In this document: positions 3,616 through 45,358 of the stretch, in pieces | How the letters are laid out: the number at the start of each line of letters is the position of its first letter | Numbering within the stretch: the stretch's first letter is position 1 | From: an uncultured Marvinbryantia sp. | Lineage (GTDB): Bacteria > Bacillota > Clostridia > Lachnospirales > Lachnospiraceae | Length of the DNA stretch: 59,932 bases | Assembly (NCBI GenBank): GCA_934408725.1 | Contig: CAKRVB010000015.1 | Span: 1-59,932 of the forward strand | Reading direction: 5' to 3' | Notes under the pieces: generated by a model | Databases searched by the model: none | Seen by the model: the letters and a program-made list of their open reading frames with translations, nothing else | Told to the model about the DNA's origin: nothing | Translations under genes and position numbers: made by a program

Positions 3616-4932
<1,317 letters not shown>

Positions 4933-4937
4933 TTATT

Positions 4938-4990
4938 GTTAGTCTTTTCTAACCAGTTGTTAGTATATACTAACTTAAATTTTCTTGCAA
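4938..4990 (-). promoter_or_regulatory. eno promoter with two phased palindromes
   Basis: Minus-strand promoter TTGCAA (4985-4990), 17-bp spacer, TATACT (4962-4967). A perfect palindrome GTTAGTATATACTAAC (4959-4974) covers the -10 box, and a second, GTTAGTCTTTTCTAAC (4938-4953), lies over the transcript start. Their centres are 21 bp apart, two helical turns, so two dimers could sit on the same DNA face. The geometry suggests repression, but the regulator cannot be named. Confidence 0.65.
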
Positions 4991-5094
4991 CAGTTTTATG
5001 AATTTTATCTTTTCAAATTTGACATTTTTCTATTCATGAAGTAAACTAGATTTAATTATTTTTATAAAGATTTTATATTTTGTGCGGAGAAAAT

Positions 5095-5529
5095 ATGATG
5101 TGGAAAAATGAGGTATATCGTCAGCTGCGCAGTCAGCATTTGTTTGAAAATGAAGCTCATCAATCACGTTTTAAAGAATTACTGGACTGTTATTCCCAGG
5201 CAGGTTTTTTCACCCCAGGCCTATGCAAGTGTATGTATCTTTCCTGTTGGGACGAGGAGCACTTTGTTATCATGCTGGATATGTTGAATCAGTTAAAGTT
5301 GAAAGATCATATGACGCTTTCTGATATGAACGAGAACGGAAAGCTGATGGCCGACGAAATGCCGGACGATGATTATGAGGCTACGATCATGCAGTTATCC
5401 TGTGATTTTCTTTCCGGTACGCCTTTTGATCAAACCAGCCTGCCAGAAAATTTTGATCCAAAAGGTCGCCACATTATCGAACAGGCTCTGAAGGCCTCTG
5501 CTGTGATTGACAGCATTCCAAGATCGTAA
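5095..5529 (+). CDS. Acidic hypothetical protein, first gene of zinc-ribbon operon
   Basis: A soluble protein of 144 residues with no signal peptide, membrane segment or motif that I recognise. It is acidic in its middle (DMNENG, DEMPDDDYE) and has scattered Cys and Phe. I chose ATG 5095, five nt after GCGGAG; ATG 5098 is an alternative, and an upstream in-frame TTG has no ribosome site. It leads a run of four plus-strand genes: the next starts 17 nt downstream and the last three overlap by 4 nt. This suggests it is co-expressed with the zinc-ribbon membrane proteins and may be their soluble partner. Function unknown. Confidence 0.7.
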   Translation: MMWKNEVYRQLRSQHLFENEAHQSRFKELLDCYSQAGFFTPGLCKCMYLSCWDEEHFVIMLDMLNQLKLKDHMTLSDMNENGKLMADEMPDDDYEATIMQLSCDFLSGTPFDQTSLPENFDPKGRHIIEQALKASAVIDSIPRS

Positions 5530-5546
5530 TCCATCAGGAGGTTCTT

Positions 5547-6350
5547 ATGTATTGCAAGAACTGTGGGGCAAAACTTTCCAGGAAAGATACCGCCTGCCCT
5601 TATTGCGGTTACACCAGCCCGGAGAAGGACGAGGCCGTCTATATGGAACATCTAAATGATCTGCTTGAAAAAACAAAAGATCTTGCAGATGTCCCTGCCA
5701 GAGAATATAAATCCGAAATAAAACAGCAAAGCCGCCGTGCACTGAAGATTTTTCTGATTGTGGCGGCTGTTTTTCTGATTCCTGCCGGCCTTTTTTCTTT
5801 GTACCGACTTTATGATTCTTATCGATCTCATCAGGAATATCTGGAAGAAACCCGGTTTGAGAAAAAATATTTTCCACAGCTAAACGAGTTATACCAGAAT
5901 GGTTCTCTTCAGGAATCTTACGAACTGATGATTTCTCTTTCCGATAAAAGGGGATATGGTGCCATTTTCCACTGGAAGCATTATCCATTCTTGTCTTTTT
6001 ACGGTGATCATCTTCTTTTGCAGGAAGTCCAAAAAGATCTGGATACCGGTCAGTCCCTGACAGAATCCGATCTGTGCGTTGCCTTTTACCATGCGATGGC
6101 TATGACTCGTGAAGCGCCATCTTCCAGAGATTATCGCAATTTTTCCGAGAAAGAGAAGTCCGACTTTCTGATCTGGCAAACAGAGTGTAACGATTTTTTA
6201 CAGGCGGTGTTTGATTTATCTTCCGGTGAAGCGGATACCCTGTATCCTTCCCTTTGCGATTACAACGCACTGATGTATTCTGAATGCAAAAAATATGTCC
6301 ACTCCGTTTTTACAGATGTCATAACAAACACTGATGGAGGAATCTTATGA
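5547..6350 (+). CDS. Zinc-ribbon protein with one membrane segment
   Basis: A 267-residue protein with an N-terminal zinc ribbon (CKNCGAKL...CPYCGYTS, residues 3-22), a charged linker, one transmembrane helix (about 70-90, ALKIFLIVAAVFLIPAGLF) and a C-terminal domain of unknown fold, probably outside the membrane. The arrangement, ribbon inside and domain outside, is seen in many Firmicute zinc-ribbon membrane proteins of unknown role. The ribosome site AGGAGG lies 7 nt before ATG. Its stop overlaps the next gene by 4 nt, suggesting translational coupling. No enzyme motif is visible. Confidence 0.8.
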   Translation: MYCKNCGAKLSRKDTACPYCGYTSPEKDEAVYMEHLNDLLEKTKDLADVPAREYKSEIKQQSRRALKIFLIVAAVFLIPAGLFSLYRLYDSYRSHQEYLEETRFEKKYFPQLNELYQNGSLQESYELMISLSDKRGYGAIFHWKHYPFLSFYGDHLLLQEVQKDLDTGQSLTESDLCVAFYHAMAMTREAPSSRDYRNFSEKEKSDFLIWQTECNDFLQAVFDLSSGEADTLYPSLCDYNALMYSECKKYVHSVFTDVITNTDGGIL

Positions 6351-7093
6351 AATGTCCACATTGTGGTTCTCCTATTCGTCTGGAAGATAAGTATTGCAGC
6401 TATTGCGGACTCCCAAACGATCTGGCCACCCAGCACCAGAAGGATATGAACCGTTATCAGAAAAAATTTAATCAGACACGTTCTGAAGTTCTGAACAGTA
6501 CCAGAAAAGCAAAGAAAAACCTGGCTTCTTTTCTTGTTCTTGCTGTCATGATGCTGCTCATCATCGCCTCTTACCGGTTCGAAGACATATCCTGGCGTCT
6601 GGGACGTTACCTGACGACCCGGCAGATTCAATCTCACAAGGCAGAACACCTTGCTGCTCTGGAAACTATCATTGCCGACCAGGCTCCTCTTCGGTTTACG
6701 GATTACTACGACCGTTATTCTCTGTACCTGTCCGATGACTTTGATTCCTATTATGCAGTGAAGGCTATTTCTTCCTCTTTTGAGAATGTGTTCCAGTACG
6801 TCTCGGATCGGCTGAGTAACCCGGAAACTTATGACAAAGATTCCGAATCCCGCAGACTTCGTACGCTCGCCAGTGATCTGAATGATATCTTTCAGATCGA
6901 AGATGCTTACACTTATCATCAGGAGCTCTATTTTTCCGAAGAAAATCTGGAATACATTCATGCTGTTCAGGATGATGCCCGTGCTATTCTGATCGCTTAT
7001 CTTGGTCTTACCGAAGAAGAAGCAGACACCTATGCCAATCTTTCTTCTTCCCGTCAATATGACTTGCTGGAAAGGAGTGTGTCAGCCTCATGA
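6347..7093 (+). CDS. Second zinc-ribbon membrane protein
   Basis: A 248-residue protein with the same plan as its upstream neighbour: zinc ribbon CPHCGSPI...CSYCGLPN (residues 3-24), a basic linker, one transmembrane helix near residues 58-75 (LASFLVLAVMMLLIIAS) and a helical C-terminal domain of about 165 residues. Outside the ribbon the two proteins show no clear identity by eye, so they may be diverged paralogues or convergent in layout. Start and stop overlap both neighbours by 4 nt, so stoichiometric production is likely. Function unknown. Confidence 0.8.
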   Translation: MKCPHCGSPIRLEDKYCSYCGLPNDLATQHQKDMNRYQKKFNQTRSEVLNSTRKAKKNLASFLVLAVMMLLIIASYRFEDISWRLGRYLTTRQIQSHKAEHLAALETIIADQAPLRFTDYYDRYSLYLSDDFDSYYAVKAISSSFENVFQYVSDRLSNPETYDKDSESRRLRTLASDLNDIFQIEDAYTYHQELYFSEENLEYIHAVQDDARAILIAYLGLTEEEADTYANLSSSRQYDLLERSVSAS

Positions 7094-7503
7094 AACGAAT
7101 CAAAGCCAAAAAGAAGTTTTCTTTTTTCACACTGGCGGTGTTGCTTCTTTCTCTGGTGCTCGTCAGTCGCGCAGCCTCCTGTGTCGAAGATCTTCGATAT
7201 AGTTTTTTCTACCATACCAGCTATTCTGCTCAGGATTACCAGTATGCCTTGCAATATAAGGAATATCCTTATCTGAACCGTATCTGCCGCAGAGATACCA
7301 GTTCCAGTTCTGATCCCTTTATTCAGGCCTGTCATGGCATCTCAGATTACTATGAGGCAGCGATTCTTTATCACGCATATGACAAGGCAAAAAATAACGC
7401 TGCAGCTCAATCTGAACTGCAGCGTATGAAGACCTGCGAAGCTTCTTATCCCGACTACGAAGAGTACTTCCGGGATATTGACCAGCTTTTTACTTCTTAC
7501 TGA
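7090..7503 (+). CDS. Small membrane-anchored protein of the zinc-ribbon operon
   Basis: A 137-residue protein with a basic N-terminus (MKRIKAKKKFS) and one hydrophobic helix (about 11-30, FFTLAVLLLSLVLVS) acting as uncleaved signal or anchor, then a Tyr-rich exported domain of about 105 residues. It has no zinc ribbon, unlike the two genes before it. ATG overlaps the previous stop (ATGA). The last 7 nt overlap the end of the convergent gene at 7497, so there is no room for a dedicated terminator between them. Function unknown; the operon context suggests a membrane complex. Confidence 0.75.
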   Translation: MKRIKAKKKFSFFTLAVLLLSLVLVSRAASCVEDLRYSFFYHTSYSAQDYQYALQYKEYPYLNRICRRDTSSSSDPFIQACHGISDYYEAAILYHAYDKAKNNAAAQSELQRMKTCEASYPDYEEYFRDIDQLFTSY

Positions 7504-8483
7504 TTCTCATTCTCCAGTCTCTCATAGAGATTGGAGATTTTTGTTTCTGACGATGCAATGACATACCCCTTCGGAGCCCAGATCACATCCTTTTTCAGAC
7601 ACAAACTCACTTGATACCGATATTCACCAGGTTCCGCAGGACACTGAAATGGGATATCCACAAATTTACTGGTTCCTGCCGGTACGTCTGTGCACAACTC
7701 ATTTTCTGAGCATTTTTTGCCGGAACTGTCCAGGATCTCATAGTGAATGTTATACTCCGACGCATTAACAAATGTACTACGATTTTCAATCAATACACCT
7801 GTCTGTATCACCTGAAGTTGAAAATCTGGGTTCTTCTCATTTTCCCGATTCAGATCCAATCTGGCACGCAGCCACCCTGCATCTGCATCCCGTCCGTCTT
7901 CCAGCAAATAAATCCCATATTCCCTGCACCATCTCTCCAGCTGGGAACTTCTTTTATCTGAGTTTATCAAAAGTGTGTTCTTATAAGTCTGTTTCATTAT
8001 CCGAAGAAACTGCTGTACTTCCGATGCCTTTTTCCCCTCCGGCAGCGCAGCCGCACGAAAATCCACCTCTTTTCCATTGATACAGGTCTGTCCCCCCACG
8101 ATCTTCCAATCACAAAAAGCCAACGACTCTGTTCTGCGATCATGACTGAAATTCTCTCCTTCCAGAATCTCAAGAATAAGTTGATAACAGTAAGGATCTT
8201 CTGCATTCCAGAGCTTCGGCTGTTCTACTCTCATGCAGAAAGAGATTTCATTCTCCAGGGGAAGTGGAAAAATCCGATCTTTTTCCTTCCCCTCCGCATC
8301 CATAACGCAGGCGCATAGCACAGGCTCTGTGTAAGCTTCCGGTCTGGTCAGATACAATCCGGTTTGATTTTCCAAAGCCTGCTTTTCCATACCATCAATC
8401 CAGGTGGTCACTTCCACATTTCCCGTACAAGTCAGTTCATCCCATGTCACTTTTGTTGCAATCTTATCTATTCTGTATTTCAT
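7497..8483 (-). CDS. GH2 beta-galactosidase-like protein lacking the catalytic barrel
   Basis: About 328 residues. The first ~115 resemble a glycoside hydrolase family 2 immunoglobulin-like domain (PKLWNAEDPYCYQL). Residues ~125-190 resemble the start of the GH2 TIM barrel (INGKEVDFR, RWCREYGIYLLEDG). The sequence then jumps to a domain-4-like sandwich (VNASEYNIHYEILDSSG, WAPKGYVIASSETKI). The barrel part that carries the acid/base and nucleophile glutamates is absent, yet the frame is open throughout. A full GH2 beta-galactosidase is about 1000 residues. It may be a non-catalytic carbohydrate-binding protein or a decaying gene. Start ATG 8483 follows AGGTGAAT; GTG 8489 is possible. Confidence 0.6.
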   Translation of the reverse strand: MKYRIDKIATKVTWDELTCTGNVEVTTWIDGMEKQALENQTGLYLTRPEAYTEPVLCACVMDAEGKEKDRIFPLPLENEISFCMRVEQPKLWNAEDPYCYQLILEILEGENFSHDRRTESLAFCDWKIVGGQTCINGKEVDFRAAALPEGKKASEVQQFLRIMKQTYKNTLLINSDKRSSQLERWCREYGIYLLEDGRDADAGWLRARLDLNRENEKNPDFQLQVIQTGVLIENRSTFVNASEYNIHYEILDSSGKKCSENELCTDVPAGTSKFVDIPFQCPAEPGEYRYQVSLCLKKDVIWAPKGYVIASSETKISNLYERLENENQ

Positions 8484-8494
8484 ATTCACCTGTC

Positions 8495-8525
8495 AAAAAA
8501 ATCCCCGGCAGTACCGGGGATTTTC
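8495..8525 (-). terminator. Terminator of infC-rpmI-rplT
   Basis: ATCCCCGG and CCGGGGAT form a perfect stem with loop CAGTA, followed on the minus strand by seven T. It lies 28 nt after the rplT stop and directly before the GH2-like gene. Confidence 0.9.
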
Positions 8526-8552
8526 TATTTCTTCTATGATTCTTTACTATAA

Positions 8553-8909
8553 TTATGCAAGCTTGCTCTTTGCAAGTTCTGCCAGTGTTGCGAATCCTTC
8601 TGCATCATTAACAGCCATATCAGCCAGAACTTTTCTGTTCAGTTCTACACCTGCAAGCTTCAGACCATACATAAATTTGCTGTAGGACAGTCCATTGATT
8701 CTTGCTGCTGCATTGATACGAGCGATCCACAGCTGTCTGAACTGACGTTTTTTCTGCTTACGTCCTGCATATGCGCTGGTAAGTGCACGCATTACAGACT
8801 GTTTTGCGATCTTATACTGTTTGGAACGGGCTCCTCTGTAACCTTTCGCCAGTTTTAATACTCTGTTATGTTTCTTTTTAGCGTTCATTCCGCCTTTAAC
8901 TCTTGCCAT
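8553..8909 (-). CDS. rplT: 50S ribosomal protein L20
   Basis: A 118-residue, strongly basic protein that binds 23S rRNA early in large-subunit assembly. [16 protein letters not shown] and the [11 protein letters not shown] and [10 protein letters not shown] segments are diagnostic. It is third in infC-rpmI-rplT. In Bacillus-type operons L20 also represses its own operon by binding the leader RNA, and such a leader is visible at 9731-9880. Ribosome site GAGGAGG precedes the start. Complete and normal length. Confidence 0.98.
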
Positions 8910-8935
8910 GTCTTATATTCCTCCTCAAACTCTTC

Positions 8936-9133
8936 TTATAAATACGGTAAAATCTTCTTCATGTTCTTGAAGTTTGTAGCATCTGTCATAGTTGCTTTTC
9001 TAAGATTTCTCTTTCTCTTAGTGGACTTCTTTGTTAAGATATGGCTCTTATAAGCTTTATTTCTTTTTAATTTACCTGTACCTGTTTTTTTGAAACGTTT
9101 TGCAGCTGCTCTGCTTGTTTTAATTTTTGGCAT
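8936..9133 (-). CDS. rpmI: 50S ribosomal protein L35
   Basis: A 65-residue basic ribosomal protein of the large subunit ([20 protein letters not shown], then the KRKRNLRKA region). It lies between infC (53 nt away) and rplT (26 nt away), the usual order. Ribosome site AAGGAGGAAT precedes ATG. Complete. Confidence 0.98.
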
Positions 9134-9186
9134 TGTGAATTCCTCCTTAAATAAATGGTTATTTTACCTGTTCGTCAGTCCGATGT

Positions 9187-9693
9187 CTAACGTTTTTCAG
9201 TTAAAAACATTGTCATGCTTCTGCCCTCAACCTTTGGAGCTTTATCGATCTGAGCAATATCCTCCAGCTCTTTGGCAAAATCATCAAGAATGTGCTTGCT
9301 GGCCTGCATATGAGCCATCTCACGACCACGGAAACGTAAGGTAACTTTTACCTTGTTGCCCTTCGTCAGGAACTTTCTGGCTGCTGAGATCTTTGTATTT
9401 AAATCATTCACATCAATGTTTGGAGAAAGACGCACTTCTTTTACTTCAATGGTCTTCTGCTTCTTCTTTGCTTCTTTTTCCTTGCGAAGCATTTCATAAC
9501 GATACTTTCCATAATCAATAATCTTGCATACCGGTGGCTTTGCCTGCGGTGCAACCTTAACCAGGTCAAGATCCGCTTCTTTTGCAAGCTTCAACGCATC
9601 TCTGGAAGACATAATCCCCAGCTGTTCTCCATGTTCCCCGATCAGACGGATCTCTTTATCTCTGATCTGCTCATTAATCATTAAATCGCTAAT
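9187..9693 (-). CDS. infC: Translation initiation factor IF-3, AUU start
   Basis: A 168-residue IF-3, which binds the 30S subunit, prevents premature 50S joining and checks start-codon identity. The N-domain has MINEQIRDKEIRLIGEHGEQ, the linker is Lys-rich (RKEKEAKKKQK), and the C-domain has VTLRFRGREMAH. I place the start at ATT 9691-9693: GGAGG lies 9 nt upstream, and the N-terminus ISDLMINEQIRD matches the family. A longer frame to an ATG at 9774 would run through the attenuator. AUU is the classic discriminated start that lets IF-3 limit its own synthesis. Confidence 0.93.
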   Translation of the reverse strand: MSDLMINEQIRDKEIRLIGEHGEQLGIMSSRDALKLAKEADLDLVKVAPQAKPPVCKIIDYGKYRYEMLRKEKEAKKKQKTIEVKEVRLSPNIDVNDLNTKISAARKFLTKGNKVKVTLRFRGREMAHMQASKHILDDFAKELEDIAQIDKAPKVEGRSMTMFLTEKR

Positions 9694-32426: not shown

Positions 32427-33227
32427 TCACATTCCAAAAGCAGTATTTCTGAGATATTCGTCTTTTCTGCTCTGAATTTCTTTCTCTGCACCTTCTTTTT
32501 GTGCCCTTTCTTTCTCGGTCAGTTCCATGCCTTCCTGTATCAGTGCCCTGGTATCTTCCCACAATTCCATAGCGTCACTTCGGTCTGCCCGAATCTGGGT
32601 CAGCCTTTGCTGATACTGTTTCTCCGACAGAAACAAAGGCAGGATCCGCAGGTATTTTTCATATACTTTTTTGGACTTCATAACCTGGTAAGAATTCCAC
32701 AGACAGTCCGCTGCTTCTTCAAACTCAAACAGATGTGCATAGGCTGCAGCCATATTTTCCAGTACCGCTGCATAAAACTGCATTCCCATCTTTCCGTTTT
32801 TCTGCTGCTGCGTAATCTTTTCGTATTCTCTTAATGCAATCACATAGCGGCCAAATTCCACAAGGTAATCCGCTTTCATTTTTCTTCTGACTTCTTCCGG
32901 CTCTGTGAGGATCTCTGTGAACTGCTCCTGAAAAAGACGAAATTCCTGCTTATCCAGATAGCCACATTCCTGGAAAATCGGGAATAAAAACTCCGTATAA
33001 GTCTCCCGTTCCAGCGCACGAAGCAGACGATTCTGCAGTTTCACCAGCCCAAGCTCTGTCCCAATCCATCTGCACAGGGATACATTTACCACAGCTTCAT
33101 CAACCAGATATACATAATGGCTGAAATAATAACACAATTCTTCCAGTGAGTATATATTCCTTCCGATGCTCTCTATGTAGAATGGTCTCACGGCACATTC
33201 TGTTCTGCATAGATAATATCCACTCAT
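32427..33227 (-). CDS. Helical protein of the DUF5716/DUF5717 operon
   Basis: 266 residues from ATG 33227 (AAAGGAG 10 nt upstream). It is all-helical by composition, with repeated aromatic and Leu/Glu patterns (SLEELCYYFSHYVYLVDEAVV). A C-terminal coiled-coil-like tail (EKERAQKEGAEKEIQSRKDE) follows a TPR-like middle (FYAAVLENMAAAYAHLFEFEEAADCLWNSYQVM). No catalytic motif. It follows the ATPase-like gene by about 33 nt on the same strand. It may be an adaptor for the 1185-residue protein. Function unknown. Confidence 0.75.
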   Translation of the reverse strand: MSGYYLCRTECAVRPFYIESIGRNIYSLEELCYYFSHYVYLVDEAVVNVSLCRWIGTELGLVKLQNRLLRALERETYTEFLFPIFQECGYLDKQEFRLFQEQFTEILTEPEEVRRKMKADYLVEFGRYVIALREYEKITQQQKNGKMGMQFYAAVLENMAAAYAHLFEFEEAADCLWNSYQVMKSKKVYEKYLRILPLFLSEKQYQQRLTQIRADRSDAMELWEDTRALIQEGMELTEKERAQKEGAEKEIQSRKDEYLRNTAFGM

Positions 33228-33260
33228 TTTTGCCAAGCTCCTTTCTCACACCTTCCGGCA

Positions 33261-34406
33261 CTATTCCATATTCAGGACACTCTCCCAGGTCAGACCGGAA
33301 GATGGGAAGAACTCTCCAAATCCCAGATCTTTGATTCTGACTCTGCAGGTTGTTGCTGATTCAAATTCCAGCTGCAGACGCAGTCTGGTCGTCTTAGGCG
33401 GCCGGTCCGGCAGGCCATCCAGTGTAATACTGAAGCTTGATGCATCTCCGCCCCGCAGAGAACGCGCATACAGCACCAGCTCTTTGCCTTCTTTCAGAAG
33501 GATCTCACAACTGCACTGTGCTTCATACCAGTTGATTCCCGCACTGATCAACATGTAATCTGTATTCTGCCCTCTGATATCCATCTGCATACCGATATTG
33601 TATTCCACCATATCTTCACTGGCATACAAATAATTGTCCAGATTCTTTCCGATGTGCAGCTTTCTGCACATGGCATAACATGCCCCTTTTGTATACAGAT
33701 TCCTTCCCTGAAAGACATGGCGTTTTCTGCACAGATACTGAAGAGACTCCACAGCCCAGGTCTTGTCAAAACTATCTCCGATCAGGAAAGTGGACGACAC
33801 TACTTCTTCCCGGAAAGTGTTCTGAATCAGCTCCAGAAACTTCTGGTCTCTTCTGGTATCCCATTCTTCACTGCTTCGTCCTGATGGATAGCCCAGTTCC
33901 ACTTTTTCTCCTGGCAGAACACGCACCAGCGCAGGCTTCGTTCTGCTGTCTGTCTTCATCAGCCAGGAAGAAATATGAGACTGATTATATTCAAACAAAG
34001 CAGATGCGTGATACCACAGTTCTTTTTTCTGATTCAGCACATAATAGAAAAAACTCTCCCGATAACTTTGCAGAAAAAGATTTTCTCCTGGAATACCCAG
34101 TTTTTCTGCTGCACTGCGAATACGGCCAATCCATGGCTGCCGTATCTCCCGCATCGTTATCATCATATATATTTCTGGCATCTCCATCGCAGGATTCAGA
34201 TATCCCAGGCATTTTTTTATAAAATCTGCCAGTTCTTCGATCCGTTCCTTCCCCTTTTCTGTCAACAGCCCGTCTGGAGTAGGAATCAGATATTTGTCCT
34301 GATTTTCTGCAATGCTGACCGATTCCGGTTCTCCGGTTCGTTCACTGTAATAAGAAATCTGTGAATATTCCTTTTCCAGATCCAGTCCTATGATTGTTCT
34401 TCTCAT
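33261..34406 (-). CDS. Actin/Hsp70-like ATPase (DUF5716 family)
   Basis: 381 residues. The N-terminus RRTIIGLDLEKEYSQISYYS reads like the phosphate-1 loop of the Hsp70/actin/sugar-kinase fold. A second segment, FLIGDSFDKTWAVESLQYLC then QGRNLYTKGACYA, sits where the phosphate-2 and adenosine motifs occur. The last ~100 residues are a beta-type domain (SLRGGDASSFSITLDGLP) that might bind a client. I believe this is DUF5716, but cannot run a search. ATG follows GGAG by 6 nt. It lies 13 nt after the 1185-residue gene, hence the same transcript. Substrate and partner unknown. Confidence 0.7.
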   Translation of the reverse strand: MRRTIIGLDLEKEYSQISYYSERTGEPESVSIAENQDKYLIPTPDGLLTEKGKERIEELADFIKKCLGYLNPAMEMPEIYMMITMREIRQPWIGRIRSAAEKLGIPGENLFLQSYRESFFYYVLNQKKELWYHASALFEYNQSHISSWLMKTDSRTKPALVRVLPGEKVELGYPSGRSSEEWDTRRDQKFLELIQNTFREEVVSSTFLIGDSFDKTWAVESLQYLCRKRHVFQGRNLYTKGACYAMCRKLHIGKNLDNYLYASEDMVEYNIGMQMDIRGQNTDYMLISAGINWYEAQCSCEILLKEGKELVLYARSLRGGDASSFSITLDGLPDRPPKTTRLRLQLEFESATTCRVRIKDLGFGEFFPSSGLTWESVLNME

Positions 34407-34419
34407 GTTTCGCTCCTGT

Positions 34420-37400
34420 TTAATTCAATCTGAAAATTTCTTCCACCAGGTACTGCATCCCGGCATATCTTGCATTCAATTCCCGGTACTTTGCTTCTTC
34501 CCCGCTCTCATTTGCCTGTATCATCTGGTTAATCAGATCATAACGAGTCACGCCATGCTGGGATAACGATCCTTGGAAAGTATAGGACTGCCGGGTGGTC
34601 TCGATCACATTTTCTGCTTCTTCTATGGTGAAATACCATTCCAGTGTATCTTTGTAAAACATGGTAAATTCTTTCGTATAGATACCCTCGAATGCCTCCT
34701 CCATACGGACACTCTTTTCCGGCTGTCCCTGATAGCTGTAATGCAGTGTGACATTGGTCTGTGGTCTGCCGCGATATTCCAGAATATACTTATCATACAG
34801 ATGATATTGTTCACGAATCTTCTTTGGCAGCTTCATCATAAATGCAAATCTCATTCCCATGCTCAGATATTTTTCCAGGAAATAACGCATCCATTCCTGC
34901 TGCCCTGCACTTTTCTCCTTGCGTTCGGTATAACGCTTCAGCAGCGCCAGCTTGCAGATATCCGGTGTTCCCACTACCCCAAGCATATTCTGTTCCATAT
35001 AGGCAAATACACACCAGTCTGTCTTCTTATCTCTCACAAAGGATTCGTAAGCCATCCAGGTAACATAAGCACGGCAGAGCCATGCTTTTCCCATCTTTTT
35101 CTCATAGGAATCGAAGATCGGCTCTGTATCTTCGGATCCATCCATCAGAAACAGCACCAGGATCAGTATCCGCTCTTCCAGTTCAAAAGAAGTCAGCCGA
35201 AACGTTCTTCCCGTATACCAGATCTTCTTCATCAATTCCAGCGAGCCCTCATAATGCTTCATCAGAAACGCAAGCATTTTCTCATCATAAAGTTCTTGTT
35301 CAAAGCAGTAAACACAGACAGCCAGCAGCATCTTATCTTCTTCTCTGTCTTCTTCTGTCAGCAGTGTACTGCACATATGAACCAGAATGGAAAGATCGAC
35401 CTTCTCCATTCCATAGATGCTGATCAGCTCATACAGTTCCTGATAGTGATCCAGTCCTGCCAGAAGCTTCGCCATCTCTCCCATATGCTCTTCGGCCATC
35501 TTGCGGCAGTCTATCTGCCGCAAAAAATGCTCTGCCTCCGGATGATCCGGATGCGCTGCAAACCAGTCCAAAAGCTTCTCCTGCAATTCTCTGCGGTAAA
35601 CTGCCTTGATCTGCTTCAGATTCATAAGCTGCAGATAATTTGCCATCTGGCTTCCTTCTACAGGGAATTCTTTTTCTCCTATCATACAATCATGCATCAG
35701 GAACCGTTCTTTGGACGGCAGATAATTTCTGCACAAAGTTTCCAGTTTTTCACTCTCCAGAAGCTTTTTCTTATGACAGAATGGTTCTGCTGCATATCTC
35801 TGTCCTTCCCGGTCTTCTGCCAGCAGGACATGCTCGCCATTTAATATCTGCACCAGCGCTTTGCCATCCTGAAGCACAACCTGCTGTTCCTGTTCCAGAG
35901 CCTTATGGATCACGATCAGATGACGCAGTCCCGGCATATCGCAGGTCACTTCGTACGTAAACAATGCTTTCTCCAGCCCTGCTGCCAGTCTTTCATTCAT
36001 CACATCTTCTTCCAGAAGGGTCTCATATAAAAGAGCCAGATCCTGACTGATCTTTCCGTCTGCCAGCTGTTCCTCCATGAATAATTCCATCACTTTCCGA
36101 TAGCTGGCATAGCTTTCCTCATCCTGTTCCCGGTTGCGGACAATTGCTGCATAAATAGCAGCCTTACGTGCTGTGTCCAGTGTATTGTGGTATACAAAAT
36201 ACAGTCTGATCGCTTTTGGAAGTTCTCCAGCATCCAGATGATCCGCTGTTTCTACAAAATATTCATATAAACCGGTAATCCGGACATCCTGCATCACACC
36301 AAGGGCAAACCATCTGGCATATTTCTTTTCCCCTTTTCTTCCTTCCATCAGTAATCTGCAGATTGCTGTCAGCAGATTGCCAGTCGGTGCTGCTTCATAA
36401 CATGCTGTCAGCACCCGGAATAATACAGGATGAAAATTTTGCATGCGTCCGGCCAGCTGTGCTGCCTGACCACTGATCTCCGGATCAAACAGCTTCTCTC
36501 TGCACAGGAAAGCCAGCAGATGTATCTCAAATTCTTCCAGTCTGCGCAGCATCAGAGGTTCTTTTTTCAAAATCTCCCAGGCTTCCAGATACATCACCGG
36601 ACTGGTGCATCCATGCTGATATTTATTTCTGATCTCTTCCAGACGTTCTCGGTCATTCCGGTACATCTGCCCGTTCACACGGAACATCAGCCACTGAAGA
36701 ATCCAGCTTTCCTGTTCCTCCAGATATAGCTCTGCAATCTTGTTTTTCACATATTCCAGGTACTCTTCGTCTTTGTTCTGCATCGTAGTCAGATACAGAT
36801 AACAGCTCTGCCAGCGGGGATCCTTCAATTCTTCTTTTCGTTCCTGCGTCTGTCCCAGAATCAGTTCTGCATGGATGGTATCCTGCATCTGAAACAGTAC
36901 ATAGCTTTCATACAAATCATAGAAAATATGCTTTCCATCTGCCCTGCGATAGCGATCCAGTGATTGCAGTGTTTCTTTACCCCAGATCTTCTGCCCAATT
37001 CTTCCTGTTCGATAATCGATATAACTTTTCAGTATCTGGGCTGTCTCTTTTTTCTGTCGATGCAGTATCCCGGAAGTTTTGCTTTTCTTTTCTCTCTGTA
37101 CTTCTACTGTACAGCAGGTTTCTTCCTGGCCTGTGGAAATAGAAATCCGTGCGAACTGTTTTCCGGCATGCAGCTTTTCTCTGTGAATCACAAATCCAAC
37201 ATGGCAGACACTTCCCAGGAACTCTTCTGTCGTAATCTGTGTCTTCTCTAATGTCAGGAACGGTGCATCACAGGAAATATGCAGCGTGGCAAATCCCCAG
37301 GTATTTTTCCGTATCACCAGTTCTTCTTTTCTGGTCTCTGCAACATGTGAAAGAATTATATAGTCCTGCTCCGGTTCCAGTGTAATTGCTTCCTTCTGTC

Positions 37401-37977
37401 CTATTCCTACCAGGAACTGTTCCAGGCAGCGATAGGAAGCTCCCTTAGCCAGCAGCCCGTCATACAGACTCGTACTGCCATCTGCCCAGCCGTGAATCTG
37501 ATTGCGGAATTTCCCTGACAGAAACAGTACATAGGCCCGTCCAAAATCTTCTTTGGCCAGTGCAGTAAATTCCTCCCTGGTAAGTGGCGGCATCACAGTT
37601 TCATTTTTTTCTTCTTTTCTTCCTTCGATGGCAATCCGATAAGGCAGGTGATATTCACTTGCCGAAGTATTCAGTATAAATTCTCCTGTCAGTACTTCTC
37701 CTGCTGCCAGACCTGTCACATCTGCCTCATAGCGGATGGTCTCTCCAATCCCATTGAAACTGTCCGGCTTTACTCCCAATCTGGGATTGGTGGAATACAC
37801 AAATCCCTGTATACTTTTTTCATTCCTGGACAGGACTGAGAATCTTCCACAGAAGTTCTCTTTTTCCACCGCCTTTCCGCTGATCTCCTTCTCTGACAAT
37901 TCCAACGTATTCTGAAGATCTTCAAATTTTCCGTTTCGTATTTCATTTATTCTTTTCTTCAATCGAATCTTCCTCAT
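34420..37977 (-). CDS. Giant helical-repeat protein (DUF5717 family)
   Basis: 1185 residues, among the longest in the window. Residues ~40-320 look beta-rich: FSVLSRNEKSIQGFVYSTNPRLGV and LTGEFILNTSASEYHLPYRI resemble immunoglobulin-like or plug domains. From ~330 to ~1090 it is helical and repetitive in TPR/HEAT fashion (YLYLTTMQNKDEEYLEYVKNKI and similar). A short beta domain (VTLHYSYQGQPEKSVRM) ends it. No signal peptide or membrane segment, so cytosolic. No enzyme motif. It heads a three-gene operon downstream of nrdR. The start at 37977 has no obvious ribosome site. I assign DUF5717 from memory of layout, not by search. Confidence 0.72.
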   Translation of the reverse strand: MRKIRLKKRINEIRNGKFEDLQNTLELSEKEISGKAVEKENFCGRFSVLSRNEKSIQGFVYSTNPRLGVKPDSFNGIGETIRYEADVTGLAAGEVLTGEFILNTSASEYHLPYRIAIEGRKEEKNETVMPPLTREEFTALAKEDFGRAYVLFLSGKFRNQIHGWADGSTSLYDGLLAKGASYRCLEQFLVGIGQKEAITLEPEQDYIILSHVAETRKEELVIRKNTWGFATLHISCDAPFLTLEKTQITTEEFLGSVCHVGFVIHREKLHAGKQFARISISTGQEETCCTVEVQREKKSKTSGILHRQKKETAQILKSYIDYRTGRIGQKIWGKETLQSLDRYRRADGKHIFYDLYESYVLFQMQDTIHAELILGQTQERKEELKDPRWQSCYLYLTTMQNKDEEYLEYVKNKIAELYLEEQESWILQWLMFRVNGQMYRNDRERLEEIRNKYQHGCTSPVMYLEAWEILKKEPLMLRRLEEFEIHLLAFLCREKLFDPEISGQAAQLAGRMQNFHPVLFRVLTACYEAAPTGNLLTAICRLLMEGRKGEKKYARWFALGVMQDVRITGLYEYFVETADHLDAGELPKAIRLYFVYHNTLDTARKAAIYAAIVRNREQDEESYASYRKVMELFMEEQLADGKISQDLALLYETLLEEDVMNERLAAGLEKALFTYEVTCDMPGLRHLIVIHKALEQEQQVVLQDGKALVQILNGEHVLLAEDREGQRYAAEPFCHKKKLLESEKLETLCRNYLPSKERFLMHDCMIGEKEFPVEGSQMANYLQLMNLKQIKAVYRRELQEKLLDWFAAHPDHPEAEHFLRQIDCRKMAEEHMGEMAKLLAGLDHYQELYELISIYGMEKVDLSILVHMCSTLLTEEDREEDKMLLAVCVYCFEQELYDEKMLAFLMKHYEGSLELMKKIWYTGRTFRLTSFELEERILILVLFLMDGSEDTEPIFDSYEKKMGKAWLCRAYVTWMAYESFVRDKKTDWCVFAYMEQNMLGVVGTPDICKLALLKRYTERKEKSAGQQEWMRYFLEKYLSMGMRFAFMMKLPKKIREQYHLYDKYILEYRGRPQTNVTLHYSYQGQPEKSVRMEEAFEGIYTKEFTMFYKDTLEWYFTIEEAENVIETTRQSYTFQGSLSQHGVTRYDLINQMIQANESGEEAKYRELNARYAGMQYLVEEIFRLN

Positions 37978-41511: not shown

Positions 41512-43410
41512 TCAACGTTCATTCAAAACCGGAAATGTCAGTATTGCCTTGAACAAATCCCCATCTATCCTGATCGTCAGGGTTCCTTTCTGTAATTCGG
41601 TCAGGCTTCTGGCAATAGACAAGCCCAACCCATTTCCTTCTGTCGTTCTGGAAGCATCCCCTCTGACGAAACGCTCCATCAATTCTTCTTCTGATATATT
41701 CAATGCTTCTCTGGATGTATTCCGGAAGATGATCACTGCGCTGTTTCCGATCCGCTCCAGAGACAGATACACTCTGGTACCTGGCTGTGCATATTTGCAG
41801 ATATTATTCATCAGATTGTCAAATACTCTCCACATTCTTCGTCCATCTGCCATGATTCGGATCTCATTTTCTGGCTGGGATGTCACCAATGTCAGATTGG
41901 CATTTTGCAGTTTTTCCTCATACTCTCCCCCTGCCTGCGTAAGGAATACAGCCGCATCACATGCAGCCAGATTGACTTCCAGATTACCGGTGGATGCCTT
42001 GGATGCTTCCACCAGATCCTCAATCAGTCTCTTTAGCCGGACAGACTGACGTACCAGCACTTCTGCATATTCGGTGATCTTCTCATTCTCACAGGATTCT
42101 TTTCCGATGAGGTCTGCATAATTGATGATGGATGTCAGCGGTGTCTTGATGTCATGAGAAACATTGGTGATCAGCTCCGTCTTCATCCGCTCACTTTTCA
42201 GCTGTTTTTCCACAGCCAGGCTCATACCGCTGGCAATGCTGTTCAGATCTTCTCCCTGTTTCTTAAAATCTCCCCTCATGCCTTTGGTGTCAATCTGATA
42301 AGACAAATCTCCTTCTGCCAGAGCAGTTGCCCCTTTCTGAAGCCTTCTGATTATCCATGCACCATAGAATATAACAGGAAGCAGGATCAGTTTTTCCAGA
42401 AACCACAGTGTCACCAGGATGCCTGTATCATAACTGAATGCCACGATTCCCAGGAACTCAAGAAAGGAAAGAATGCCAGCTCCAAGAACTACTTTCCAGA
42501 TCATTGGAAATTCCAGCAGCATAGCCCAGATTCCAACACAGATTTTTTTCATCAGATGAAGACACCAGTAAATAACTGTATTTTTCCACAGAGTCTTTTT
42601 CTTCACACGCACTGCAATACTCATGCAAAATCCAAGAAAAATATTGCCTGCCAGAAGAACGCCCACTCCCAGAAAAACAGCATTTACTATTCCATTATCT
42701 GTCATCATACCGACCGGAATCCCAATTACTGCGCATACCAGCATTCCCAGTATCCATGTCAGCAAATCTGCCGGTATCGCATACAATGGTCCCGGACAGA
42801 TCTCGCCGGTGTCTCTCCTGCGGCCACTGACACCCATGAGCGTGACAAAACTTAAAAGTCCGAGCACAAATGCCAGTGCCATAATCACGTATATTGTATA
42901 CCGAAGCTTATATGCCATATGAACACCTTTTTCTGCCCATGCATATTTATCCGGCTTTGCCATGGAAGCATCTATATTGAAATGAATTGTGGCATATTTC
43001 TGAGAAGGATTATGTTTTACAGGCGATTCATACAACTGATAATTCCATATATCATCTCCGTCCTCATATACCATATAATATCTGGTATATTGCCATTTGA
43101 TTTTTGTATCCTTTTTCCCGGCTTTTACCTTTCCATCTGTTCCCACAATCTGCCAGGTCAGATTTCCAGTTTCCCCGTCCTCTTCTTCCGACAGCATATC
43201 ATTTTCTGCTCGCCATACCAATGACTGTCCGTCTCTGTACAACAGGCCGTCAAATACCTCTTCCCGCAGATCCGATTCTTCTCTGGTATAAAAATCCTGC
43301 TCTACCAGAACCACGGATCCTGCAACTGTCGCTGTAAATATCACCCCAAAAATTCCGCAGAGCAGAAATAAAATCGTTTTTCCTGCTGCTGTTCTGAAAA
43401 ACTGTCTCAT
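41512..43410 (-). CDS. Multi-pass sensor histidine kinase
   Basis: 632 residues. First transmembrane helix at ~10-32, an extracellular domain to ~165, then a block of four or five more helices (~170-355). A HAMP-like segment follows (ATALAEGDLSYQID), then HisKA with phospho-acceptor His near residue 418 in TNVSHDIKTPLTSIINYADLI. The ATPase domain shows N in NLMNNICKYA and Gly box in RTTEGNGLGLSIARSL. It phosphorylates the response regulator encoded just upstream (4-nt overlap). The signal is unknown; the cluster type is common in Lachnospiraceae, often for cell-envelope stress. Confidence 0.93.
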   Translation of the reverse strand: MRQFFRTAAGKTILFLLCGIFGVIFTATVAGSVVLVEQDFYTREESDLREEVFDGLLYRDGQSLVWRAENDMLSEEEDGETGNLTWQIVGTDGKVKAGKKDTKIKWQYTRYYMVYEDGDDIWNYQLYESPVKHNPSQKYATIHFNIDASMAKPDKYAWAEKGVHMAYKLRYTIYVIMALAFVLGLLSFVTLMGVSGRRRDTGEICPGPLYAIPADLLTWILGMLVCAVIGIPVGMMTDNGIVNAVFLGVGVLLAGNIFLGFCMSIAVRVKKKTLWKNTVIYWCLHLMKKICVGIWAMLLEFPMIWKVVLGAGILSFLEFLGIVAFSYDTGILVTLWFLEKLILLPVIFYGAWIIRRLQKGATALAEGDLSYQIDTKGMRGDFKKQGEDLNSIASGMSLAVEKQLKSERMKTELITNVSHDIKTPLTSIINYADLIGKESCENEKITEYAEVLVRQSVRLKRLIEDLVEASKASTGNLEVNLAACDAAVFLTQAGGEYEEKLQNANLTLVTSQPENEIRIMADGRRMWRVFDNLMNNICKYAQPGTRVYLSLERIGNSAVIIFRNTSREALNISEEELMERFVRGDASRTTEGNGLGLSIARSLTELQKGTLTIRIDGDLFKAILTFPVLNER

Positions 43411-44105
43411 ATTTCCCGTCCTTTCTCCAGCTTGTATCCCTGTCCAAATACCACCTTCAGGTATCTTGGCTCAGCCGGATTGATCTCTATTTTTTCCCGG
43501 ATATGGCGGATGTGTACCGCAACCGTATTGTCGGTTCCGATTGGTTTTTCCTTCCATACCTGAGAATAAATCTCCTTTGGTGAGAATACTTTGCCCGGAT
43601 TGGCAAGAAATAATTTCAGAATTTCAAATTCTTTTGGTGTCAGGGTGATCTGTGTACCATCCACATAGACCTCTTTTTCTTTGTTTCGCAGTTCAATGCC
43701 GCCTACACTATAGTTCTCACTGCTTTGCGTTCCTCCGCCCAGTTTCAGGTATCTGCGCAGCTGGGACCGGACTCTGGCCGTCACTTCCAGTGGATGAAAC
43801 GGCTTGGTGATATAATCATCGGCTCCCACATTCAATCCCAGTATCTTGTCCGCATCCTCACTCTTGGCGGTCAGCAGAATAATCGGAATATTACTCTTCT
43901 CCCTGATCTTTGTCATGGCTGTGATTCCATCCATTTGTGGCATCATAATGTCCATCAGGATCAGATGAATCTCTGTGTGCTCCATCAGTTCCACCGCTTC
44001 TTTTCCATTATAAGCCTCATATATCTGATAATCCGGATCAGACAGATATATTTTTAGAGCATTGACGATGTCTTTTTCATCATCACAAATCAAAATATTC
44101 GGCAT
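43407..44105 (-). CDS. OmpR-family response regulator
   Basis: 232 residues: receiver domain (MPNILICDDEKDIVNALK, phospho-acceptor Asp in HLILMDIMMPQMDG, Lys in LTAKSEDADKI) and winged-helix DNA-binding domain (GGIELRNKEKEVYVDG, then FEILKLFLANPGKVFSPKEIY). ATG 44105 follows GGGGAGGG by 7 nt. The reading frame stays open upstream through the 63-bp repeats only because the unit is a multiple of three; that extension has no ribosome site and I do not count it. Overlaps the kinase by 4 nt. Confidence 0.95.
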   Translation of the reverse strand: MPNILICDDEKDIVNALKIYLSDPDYQIYEAYNGKEAVELMEHTEIHLILMDIMMPQMDGITAMTKIREKSNIPIILLTAKSEDADKILGLNVGADDYITKPFHPLEVTARVRSQLRRYLKLGGGTQSSENYSVGGIELRNKEKEVYVDGTQITLTPKEFEILKLFLANPGKVFSPKEIYSQVWKEKPIGTDNTVAVHIRHIREKIEINPAEPRYLKVVFGQGYKLEKGREI

Positions 44106-44232
44106 AAAAAATTCCCTCCCCTTTTCTCTTGAACTCATTGTACTACAAATGACGTTTAAGAAGAAAGTAGGGGAGGGATTAAGATTTGATGAAGCTTCTG
44201 AAGAGTTTTCATTCTCCTGAACCCGGTTAGGC

Positions 44233-44558
44233 CTGAACATTCGACACCTGACCACAGATTTCGCTTGTTTCTCCTTCTCCGGGGTCACATCGTAGCTGAA
44301 TACACGGTGCCTGACCACGGATTTCACTTGTTTCTCTTTCTCCGGGGTCGCATCGTAGCTGAATACACGGTGCCTGACCACGGATTTCGCTTGTTTCTCT
44401 TTCTCCGGGGTCGCATCGTAACTGAATACACGGTATCTGACCACGGATTTCGCTTGTTTCTCTTTCTCCGGGGTCGCATCGTAGCTGAATACACGGTGCC
44501 TGACCACGGATTTCACTTGTTTCTCCTTCTCCGGGGTCGCATCGTGTCCGAACACCCA
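44233..44558. repeat. 63-bp tandem repeat array (minisatellite)
   Basis: About five tandem copies of a 63-bp unit, with the landmark GGGGTC at 44281, 44344, 44407, 44470 and 44533. The inner copies are nearly identical; end copies decay. It lies in the 476-bp gap between the ZIP transporter and the response regulator gene. Because 63 is divisible by three, open frames appear on both strands (for example DATPEKEKQAKSVV). I see no start sites and read it as non-coding. Copy number may vary between strains. Confidence 0.9.
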
Positions 44559-44581
44559 GTACATTTCCGTACACCACGGCA

Positions 44582-45358
44582 TTATCCCAGTGCCACGTCC
44601 AGAATCATCATGATACTGAAACCGATCGCAAAGAAAATGGTTCCCAGATTGGAGTGATCTCCCTGAGACATTTCCGGAATAAGTTCCTCTACTACAACGT
44701 ATAGCATAGCTCCTGCTGCGAAGCTAAGCAGATAAGGTAAGATCGGAACTATGAGACTTGAAGCCAAAATCGTCAGCACTGCTCCAATCGGTTCTACCAC
44801 ACCAGACAACACGCCACCCGCAAATGCTTTTGATTTCTTCATTCCCTCTGCCCGCAGTGGCATAGAGATGATGGCACCTTCTGGAAAGTTCTGTATGGCG
44901 ATACCCAGAGAAAGCGCCAGTGCTCCGGCTGCTGTGATCCCACTGTTGCCAAGTCGGTATCCGGCATAGACCACGCCAACTGCCATCCCTTCTGGGATGT
45001 TGTGTAACGTCACTGCCAGAATCATCATGGTCGTTCGCTGCAAATTGCTGTGAGGTCCTTCTGCCTCCTCACTGTTCTGATGTAGATGCGGAATTGTTCT
45101 GTCCAGTAACAACAAAAAAAGTATCCCAATCCAGAAGCCAGCTGCTGCCGGGATAAACTGCCATGTTCCCATCGCTGCTGACTGTTCCAGTGCCGGGATC
45201 AAAAGACTCCAGATGGATGCCGCCACCATGACTCCAGACGCAAATCCGGTCAGAGAGCGCTGCACCCGATCACTTAAACTGTGCTTCATAAAGAAAACAC
45301 AGGCCGCTCCAAGAGATGTGCCGAGGAACGGAATCAGAATGCCATATACTGTTTCCAT
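44582..45358 (-). CDS. ZIP-family divalent metal transporter
   Basis: 258 residues with eight predicted helices. Metal-binding signature in helix 4: TLHNIPEGMAVGVVYAGY (H-N-x-P-E-G) and in helix 5 AIQNFPEGAIISMPLRAEG. A His-containing loop (PHLHQNSEEAEGPH) follows helix 3. Family moves zinc, iron or manganese into the cytosol. The start is preceded by AGGAGC. The promoter carries a palindrome between -35 and -10, as expected for metal-dependent repression. No partner genes. Confidence 0.93.
   Translation of the reverse strand: METVYGILIPFLGTSLGAACVFFMKHSLSDRVQRSLTGFASGVMVAASIWSLLIPALEQSAAMGTWQFIPAAAGFWIGILFLLLLDRTIPHLHQNSEEAEGPHSNLQRTTMMILAVTLHNIPEGMAVGVVYAGYRLGNSGITAAGALALSLGIAIQNFPEGAIISMPLRAEGMKKSKAFAGGVLSGVVEPIGAVLTILASSLIVPILPYLLSFAAGAMLYVVVEELIPEMSQGDHSNLGTIFFAIGFSIMMILDVALG

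Follow-up and report, generated by a model that had tools for sequence, protein, structure and literature searches.

The window analysed here is the whole 59,932-nucleotide stretch of contig CAKRVB010000015.1 from an uncultured Marvinbryantia sp. On its minus strand lie three ORFs separated, from their coordinates, by gaps of 13 and 24 bp, with the end of nrdR 42 bp upstream and the start of purF 41 bp downstream; sigma-factor ORFs and spoIIGA lie upstream beyond nrdR. An earlier note on this DNA described an actin/Hsp70-like ATPase encoded between a giant helical-repeat protein and a helical adaptor, and the ORFs and their sizes are as it had them, its 266 aa for the third product being the count from an alternative ATG at residue 4 (33227). 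The genes and the domains of their products are as follows.

34420..37977, minus strand: scaffold gene, 1185 aa, DUF5717_N and DUF5717 (ORF, Pfam, AlphaFold2)
37618..37914, minus strand: scaffold Ig1, residues 22-120, ASH/HYDIN-, MSP- and PapD-like
37084..37380, minus strand: scaffold Ig2, residues 200-298 (DSSP of the model; fold matches over 196-299)
35962..37083, minus strand: scaffold first alpha-solenoid, residues 299-672 (DSSP of the model; generic fold matches)
34804..35757, minus strand: scaffold second alpha-solenoid, residues 741-1058 (DSSP of the model)
34570..34803, minus strand: scaffold C-terminal beta-sandwich, residues 1059-1136 (DSSP of the model)
33261..34406, minus strand: pseudo-Hsp70 gene, 381 aa, DUF5716 (ORF, PF18980, fold searches)
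33642..34406, minus strand: degenerate Hsp70 nucleotide-binding domain, about residues 1-255, subdomain IIB mostly absent
33264..33641, minus strand: Hsp70 SBD-beta-like domain, about residues 256-381, no lid (fold alignment)
32427..33236, minus strand: TPR adaptor gene, 269 aa from TTG (ORF, TPR_2 in homologues, DUF5716 fusions)

Elsewhere in the window, residues 162-387 of a 391-aa ORF (43407-44582, minus strand) resemble response regulators, the best model being VanR-type at 255.4 of 350 bits and so far below cut-off.

The three proteins

The 1185-aa product belongs to Pfam families PF18984 (DUF5717_N; 3.7e-239, 796.4 bits, cut-off 25) and PF18983 (DUF5717; 5.8e-81, 272.4 bits, cut-off 25). 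Its AlphaFold2 model has a pLDDT of 86.2 and a pTM of only 0.58, which makes the overall shape provisional; the N-terminal beta domains and helical repeats that had been read from the sequence are seen in the predicted structure. The resemblance of the Ig domains to ASH/HYDIN, MSP and PapD-like domains is one of fold alone, as sequence searches for such kinship gave no match, and nothing points to a role in cilia or pili. Since fold searches with the solenoids return generic helical matches (IFT-A, Ski3), no function is assigned from them. A CBM_56 identity for the C-terminal beta-sandwich was rejected, its 21.7 bits being under the cut-off of 27. Two homologous scaffolds (L060 and L073) are without DUF5717 profile positions 117-492, which suggests that Ig2 and a large part of the first solenoid are dispensable.

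The 381-aa product matches PF18980 (DUF5716_C; 6.2e-104, 347.5 bits, cut-off 34.7) and does contain the segments IIGLDLEKEYS and GDSFDKTW...KGACYA on which the proposal of an actin/Hsp70 fold had been based. Structure prediction and structural search bear that proposal out: 7kru_B superposes on the model across residues 3-381, and the predicted architecture, a nucleotide-binding domain of actin/Hsp70 fold and then an SBD-beta domain, is that of the Hsp70 superfamily. GspL/PilM-type pseudo-actins are another candidate kin to be weighed; they do not figure in the 50 fold matches listed for the protein, which excludes nothing. At the level of sequence a direct link to Hsp70 was at first missing. 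Hsp70 is not among the PDB matches from phmmer and profile searches with DUF5716, and none of 45 members has an HSP70 Pfam match at E 10, keeping in mind that HMMER filters drop most matches above 0.1. With hhalign against eight Hsp70s one 40-residue stretch was aligned (2.4% probability, E 0.019), and four proteins in which DUF5716 is fused to the TPR protein have no HSP70 match in Pfam, two of them having none in the PDB either. The gap is resolved because an order-level sample of genomes yielded bridge proteins, considered below, that match both families, and the profile of one of the cassette Hsp70s, Hsp70-C, reaches DUF5716 proteins at 5.1e-14. Kinship of the 381-aa protein with Hsp70 is thus nearly certain. 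Five unannotated faecal ‘Bacteriophage sp.’ records, perhaps bacterial DNA, also have 26-31% matches to DUF5716 (for instance MT835719.1:23686-24891).

The third product, described earlier simply as helical, can be identified through its homologues as a TPR protein. TPR_2 is found in 21 of 35 of them at E 0.1 or better, and a longer homologue from a sister family has a TPR match of 5e-26; in the window copy the likeness is sub-threshold and reaches no Pfam cut-off. A single ORF of 690-727 aa encodes both DUF5716 and the TPR protein in four genomes, with the domains in gene order, which is good evidence of physical partnership. That all three proteins form a complex is probable.

Conservation and distribution

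Synteny was read in 80 loci, the best 80 of the 327 found, and the order DUF5717-DUF5716-TPR on one strand holds, for the genes present, in every one of them. The set is complete in 75 loci, and each of the other five is cut by a contig end before the gene it lacks, upstream in L036 and L080 and downstream in L037, L052 and L053. The family concerned we take to be Lachnospiraceae, and the order Lachnospirales, from the inclusion of Kineothrix alysoides (L054) and general taxonomy. Among 250 Lachnospiraceae genomes, whose completeness is unstated, DUF5716 is found in 244, DUF5717 in 245 and both in 242, with neither in G435, G497 and G628; the TPR protein is found in 96 of 100. Across a phylum sample DUF5716 and DUF5717 occur in the same 5 of 398 genomes, four of which are Lachnospiraceae as judged by shared samples. 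The pairing of the 381-aa protein with a dedicated giant scaffold and a helical adaptor is accordingly co-conserved, as synteny and genome counts agree, and the idea that the three-gene form is peculiar to Lachnospiraceae holds largely (244/250 in the family versus 5/398 in the phylum sample).

Neighbouring genes vary more. HtpG is encoded upstream on the same strand, 69-3964 bp away, in 13 of these best 80 of 327 loci and a PpiC foldase in 11 of the same 80, both names coming from one representative each. A fourth gene, for a protein with a coiled coil and a hydrophobic hairpin resembling two transmembrane segments, lies 3′ of the TPR gene in 22 of the best 80 of 327, and a profile of the hairpin protein has matches in 44 of 100 Lachnospiraceae genomes. 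Pfam gives nothing at 0.01 for one such hairpin gene (L039:6000-7223, about 394 aa). HSP70 is matched strongly (E 5e-213 or better) in each of ten genomes tested, so the general DnaK coexists with the operon.

A four-Hsp70 cassette in sister families

In other families of the order the relatives of the operon are larger cassettes. Among 56 genomes of the order, DUF5716_C has a match in 29 (27 above cut-off) and DUF5717_N in 30, with 28 in common; as to the remainder, the G655 contig ends after the gene for the GrpE-domain protein, G694 has a weak Hsp70-B (7.9e-8), and the DUF5716 match in G700 is sub-threshold only. Cassette loci were read in 20 of the 24 matching genomes besides G004, G152, G232, G256 and G407, with one more added; carriers include Defluviitalea phaphyphila (P0128; L121). 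Cassettes were seen in L121-L140 and L146-L148, for example at L129:4818-19001. The cassette genes are as follows.

DUF5717 scaffold, often split into two genes
Hsp70-A (HSP70 5.1e-76)
Protein with a GrpE domain at its end (3e-13 and 1.4e-14 in the two scanned)
Hsp70-B (DUF5716_C 1.5e-26 and HSP70 1.4e-17 in one protein)
Hsp70-C (HSP70 7.4e-63)
Hsp70-D followed by a VWA domain (4.5e-96; 1.9e-10)
TPR protein, and sometimes also the hairpin protein

With Hsp70 fragments below 430 aa dropped from the counts, and several loci ending early, every one of the 20 cassette loci contains Hsp70-B; Hsp70-C is found in 19, Hsp70-D in 17, Hsp70-A in 15 (plus one A in L137), the GrpE-domain protein in 18 (L137 by profile) and the TPR protein in 14. 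DUF5717 is in all 20 genomes. No J-domain protein is among the ten cassette proteins scanned. In Lachnospiraceae the genes that are left, DUF5717, B, TPR and hairpin, are in the same order as in the cassette, and the Hsp70-A, Hsp70-D and GrpE-domain profiles have no match at 1e-5 within the 80 loci and the window.

The catalytic set is intact in A (15/15), C (19/19), D (15/16, the exception being one fragment) and DnaK (6/6) and in none of 20 copies of B, so that what Lachnospiraceae retain is the copy found degenerate in all cassettes read. DUF5716 and Hsp70-B fall on the same side of a branch with SH-aLRT of 100 in trees made in quick mode and with long branches flagged, and the Hsp70-B nearest to DUF5716 (L125) comes from a locus where pieces of A, the GrpE-domain gene, C and D are also found. 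Without the B rows DUF5716 groups with Hsp70-C (SH-aLRT 98), and so the choice of B over C as nearest kin depends on those rows. The simpler account is that the cassette came first and was reduced by loss to the Lachnospiraceae operon, since the four Hsp70 lineages are divergent; independent expansion to four Hsp70s is the alternative and the less simple one. A second reduced locus, with only a split scaffold and Hsp70-B in 18 kb, is seen in L138 (G664; 4314-9413). Cassette, bridge proteins, trees and residue survey together speak for a chaperone ancestry of the operon, which fits the chaperone option of the earlier note.

A probably nucleotide-independent Hsp70 and its possible role

The part of the earlier description that does not survive is the word ATPase. 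None of 120 distinct DUF5716 homologues has a phosphate loop of the GGG[TS] type, and of TT, K70, the catalytic Glu E147, GGGT and D176 none is kept in any of 16 aligned members, so that DUF5716 is without the phosphate-binding and catalytic residues of an active DnaK-type Hsp70. Subdomain IIB is mostly missing, as is the lid, with a coverage of 0.02. An active ATPase identity was rejected on the loss of the ATP-site residues, and the residue survey makes it very probable that the activity is gone. For a cytoskeletal machine, the other role that had been raised, no supporting evidence was found; a filament was likewise rejected, with IIB mostly absent. That the protein is an unusual but active ATPase, its nucleotide held by non-canonical residues, is improbable in view of the lost phosphate-1 TT, K70 and GGGT and of most of IIB, even with a strikingly conserved cleft-side segment (G234, N236 and G241 invariant across 121 rows, A242 and C243 in all but one) and an acidic residue, Asp or Glu, at the position of D194 in 97 of 120 homologues to speak for it. 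The 121 rows, 120 of them distinct, comprise the window, the 4 fusions, 44 from A1, 71 loci and L111, with L112-L115 and 9 of the 80 loci left out.

The Hsp70 fold, the kinship with Hsp70-B, the loss of the ATP site, the fixed gene order and the TPR fusion can be read from sequence or prediction. They are consistent with an explanation that we hold with modest confidence, namely that a nucleotide-independent pseudo-Hsp70, an Ig/alpha-solenoid scaffold and a TPR adaptor form a stable complex that is the reduced form of a multi-Hsp70 machine. The three would bind one another, with the pseudo-Hsp70 acting as a fixed clamp between scaffold and adaptor much as Ssz1 does on Zuo1, and a segment of a partner might complete its beta domain in place of ATP-driven client cycling. 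Scaffold and adaptor could then hold clients, or present these to general chaperones or to none; in the cassette the recipients may be Hsp70s A, C and D together with the GrpE-domain protein, and where a lineage has the hairpin gene client handling may take place at the membrane.

Whether proteins are in fact handled is a separate issue, and a protein-handling role for the operon is moderately favoured. The hydrophobic linker segment and the canonical peptide-cleft residues are unconserved in both DUF5716 and Hsp70-B, which makes client binding by the beta domain doubtful, and that HtpG and PpiC are neighbours only in a minority of loci is evidence against a chaperone role. A serious but less likely rival is a purely structural hub in which the Hsp70 fold is a protein-protein module for an envelope, division or sporulation structure or pathway and has no chaperone function. 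The same lost ATP site, cleft loop and linker would suit it, as would the nearby nrdR, sigma-factor genes and spoIIGA in the window, the hairpin gene that follows in 22 of the best 80 of 327 loci and the retention of scaffold and Hsp70-B alone in L138. The ancestral type of cassette, with its three catalytically intact Hsp70s and GrpE-domain protein, and the HtpG and PpiC genes adjoining some loci argue against it. Sporulation alone is unlikely, given presence in 244 of 250 Lachnospiraceae genomes, spore formers and others counted together. More tentatively than for the stable complex itself, the cassette may be a private chaperone apparatus of Lachnospirales, made up of four tandem Hsp70s, GrpE, a VWA fusion and the Ig/solenoid scaffold, of which Hsp70-B and scaffold are the core, kept as a nucleotide-free holding complex after the ATP-dependent parts were lost.

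Among known systems, the nearest published layout seen is that of the GAP1-N2 systems of actinobacteria and firmicutes, for which PMC7159879 describes a theme of HSP70, GrpE, a second HSP70 without a peptide-binding domain and a protein of FNIII repeats joined to DnaJ or TPRs. The sister-family cassette likewise brings together HSP70, GrpE and a beta-repeat/TPR protein. The cassette differs in its four Hsp70 paralogues, of which one carries a VWA domain, and the operon in being near-universal in one family. The similar parts list in PMC7159879 allows the operon to be seen as a remnant of such a GTPase-centred conflict (defence) system, and this is very improbable. GAP1-N2 systems have a GTPase and GAP1, and no match to GAP1 or a TRAFAC GTPase was found in the ten cassette or seventeen window proteins scanned (for the window with Pfam or NCBIfam, the latter at E 1e-10). 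None of the three window proteins has a PADLOC match; four of seven cassette proteins match partially (8.7e-11 to 4.7e-5), only over stretches of longer models. Presence in 244 of 250 Lachnospiraceae genomes is also not patchy, and a defence or mobile gene set was rejected on that near-universality and the PADLOC outcome.

The impression that no known system has this layout agrees with the open-access full-text literature, whose best-ranked matches contain nothing on DUF5716 or DUF5717 function or on a four-Hsp70 cassette; DUF5716 brings up a single paper, on an unrelated matter, and DUF5717 none. Two of the proteins are already members of Pfam DUFs, above curated cut-offs and with no function given, and relatives have the larger cassettes. 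Two DUFs that are near-core in a dominant gut family can now be given a structural identity and an evolutionary origin and, if the system is essential, it would be a family-specific handle on Lachnospiraceae. Sister genomes still carry the fuller cassette, and the system makes it possible to ask what an Hsp70 does without ATP.

The nucleotide-binding and SBD-beta fold is common to DnaK and DUF5716, with the latter lacking catalytic residues, lid and linker and having little of IIB. The closer comparison is with the eukaryotic RAC (Ssz1-Zuo1). According to PMC10191838, Ssz1 binds ATP without hydrolysing or needing it, retains IIB and is locked to Zuo1 via its beta domain; DUF5716 is likewise, as its residues predict, a non-hydrolysing and lid-less Hsp70, one without most of IIB. 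The RAC partner is a J-protein on ribosomes and that of DUF5716 an Ig/solenoid giant with no detected J domain, a search of the three window proteins at E 1 having found no match to DnaJ. The two are likely to be of independent origin. No description of a nucleotide-free Hsp70 chaperone platform was found for bacteria, and the system discussed here would give bacteria an equivalent of the non-catalytic Hsp70s of eukaryotes, Ssz1 among them.
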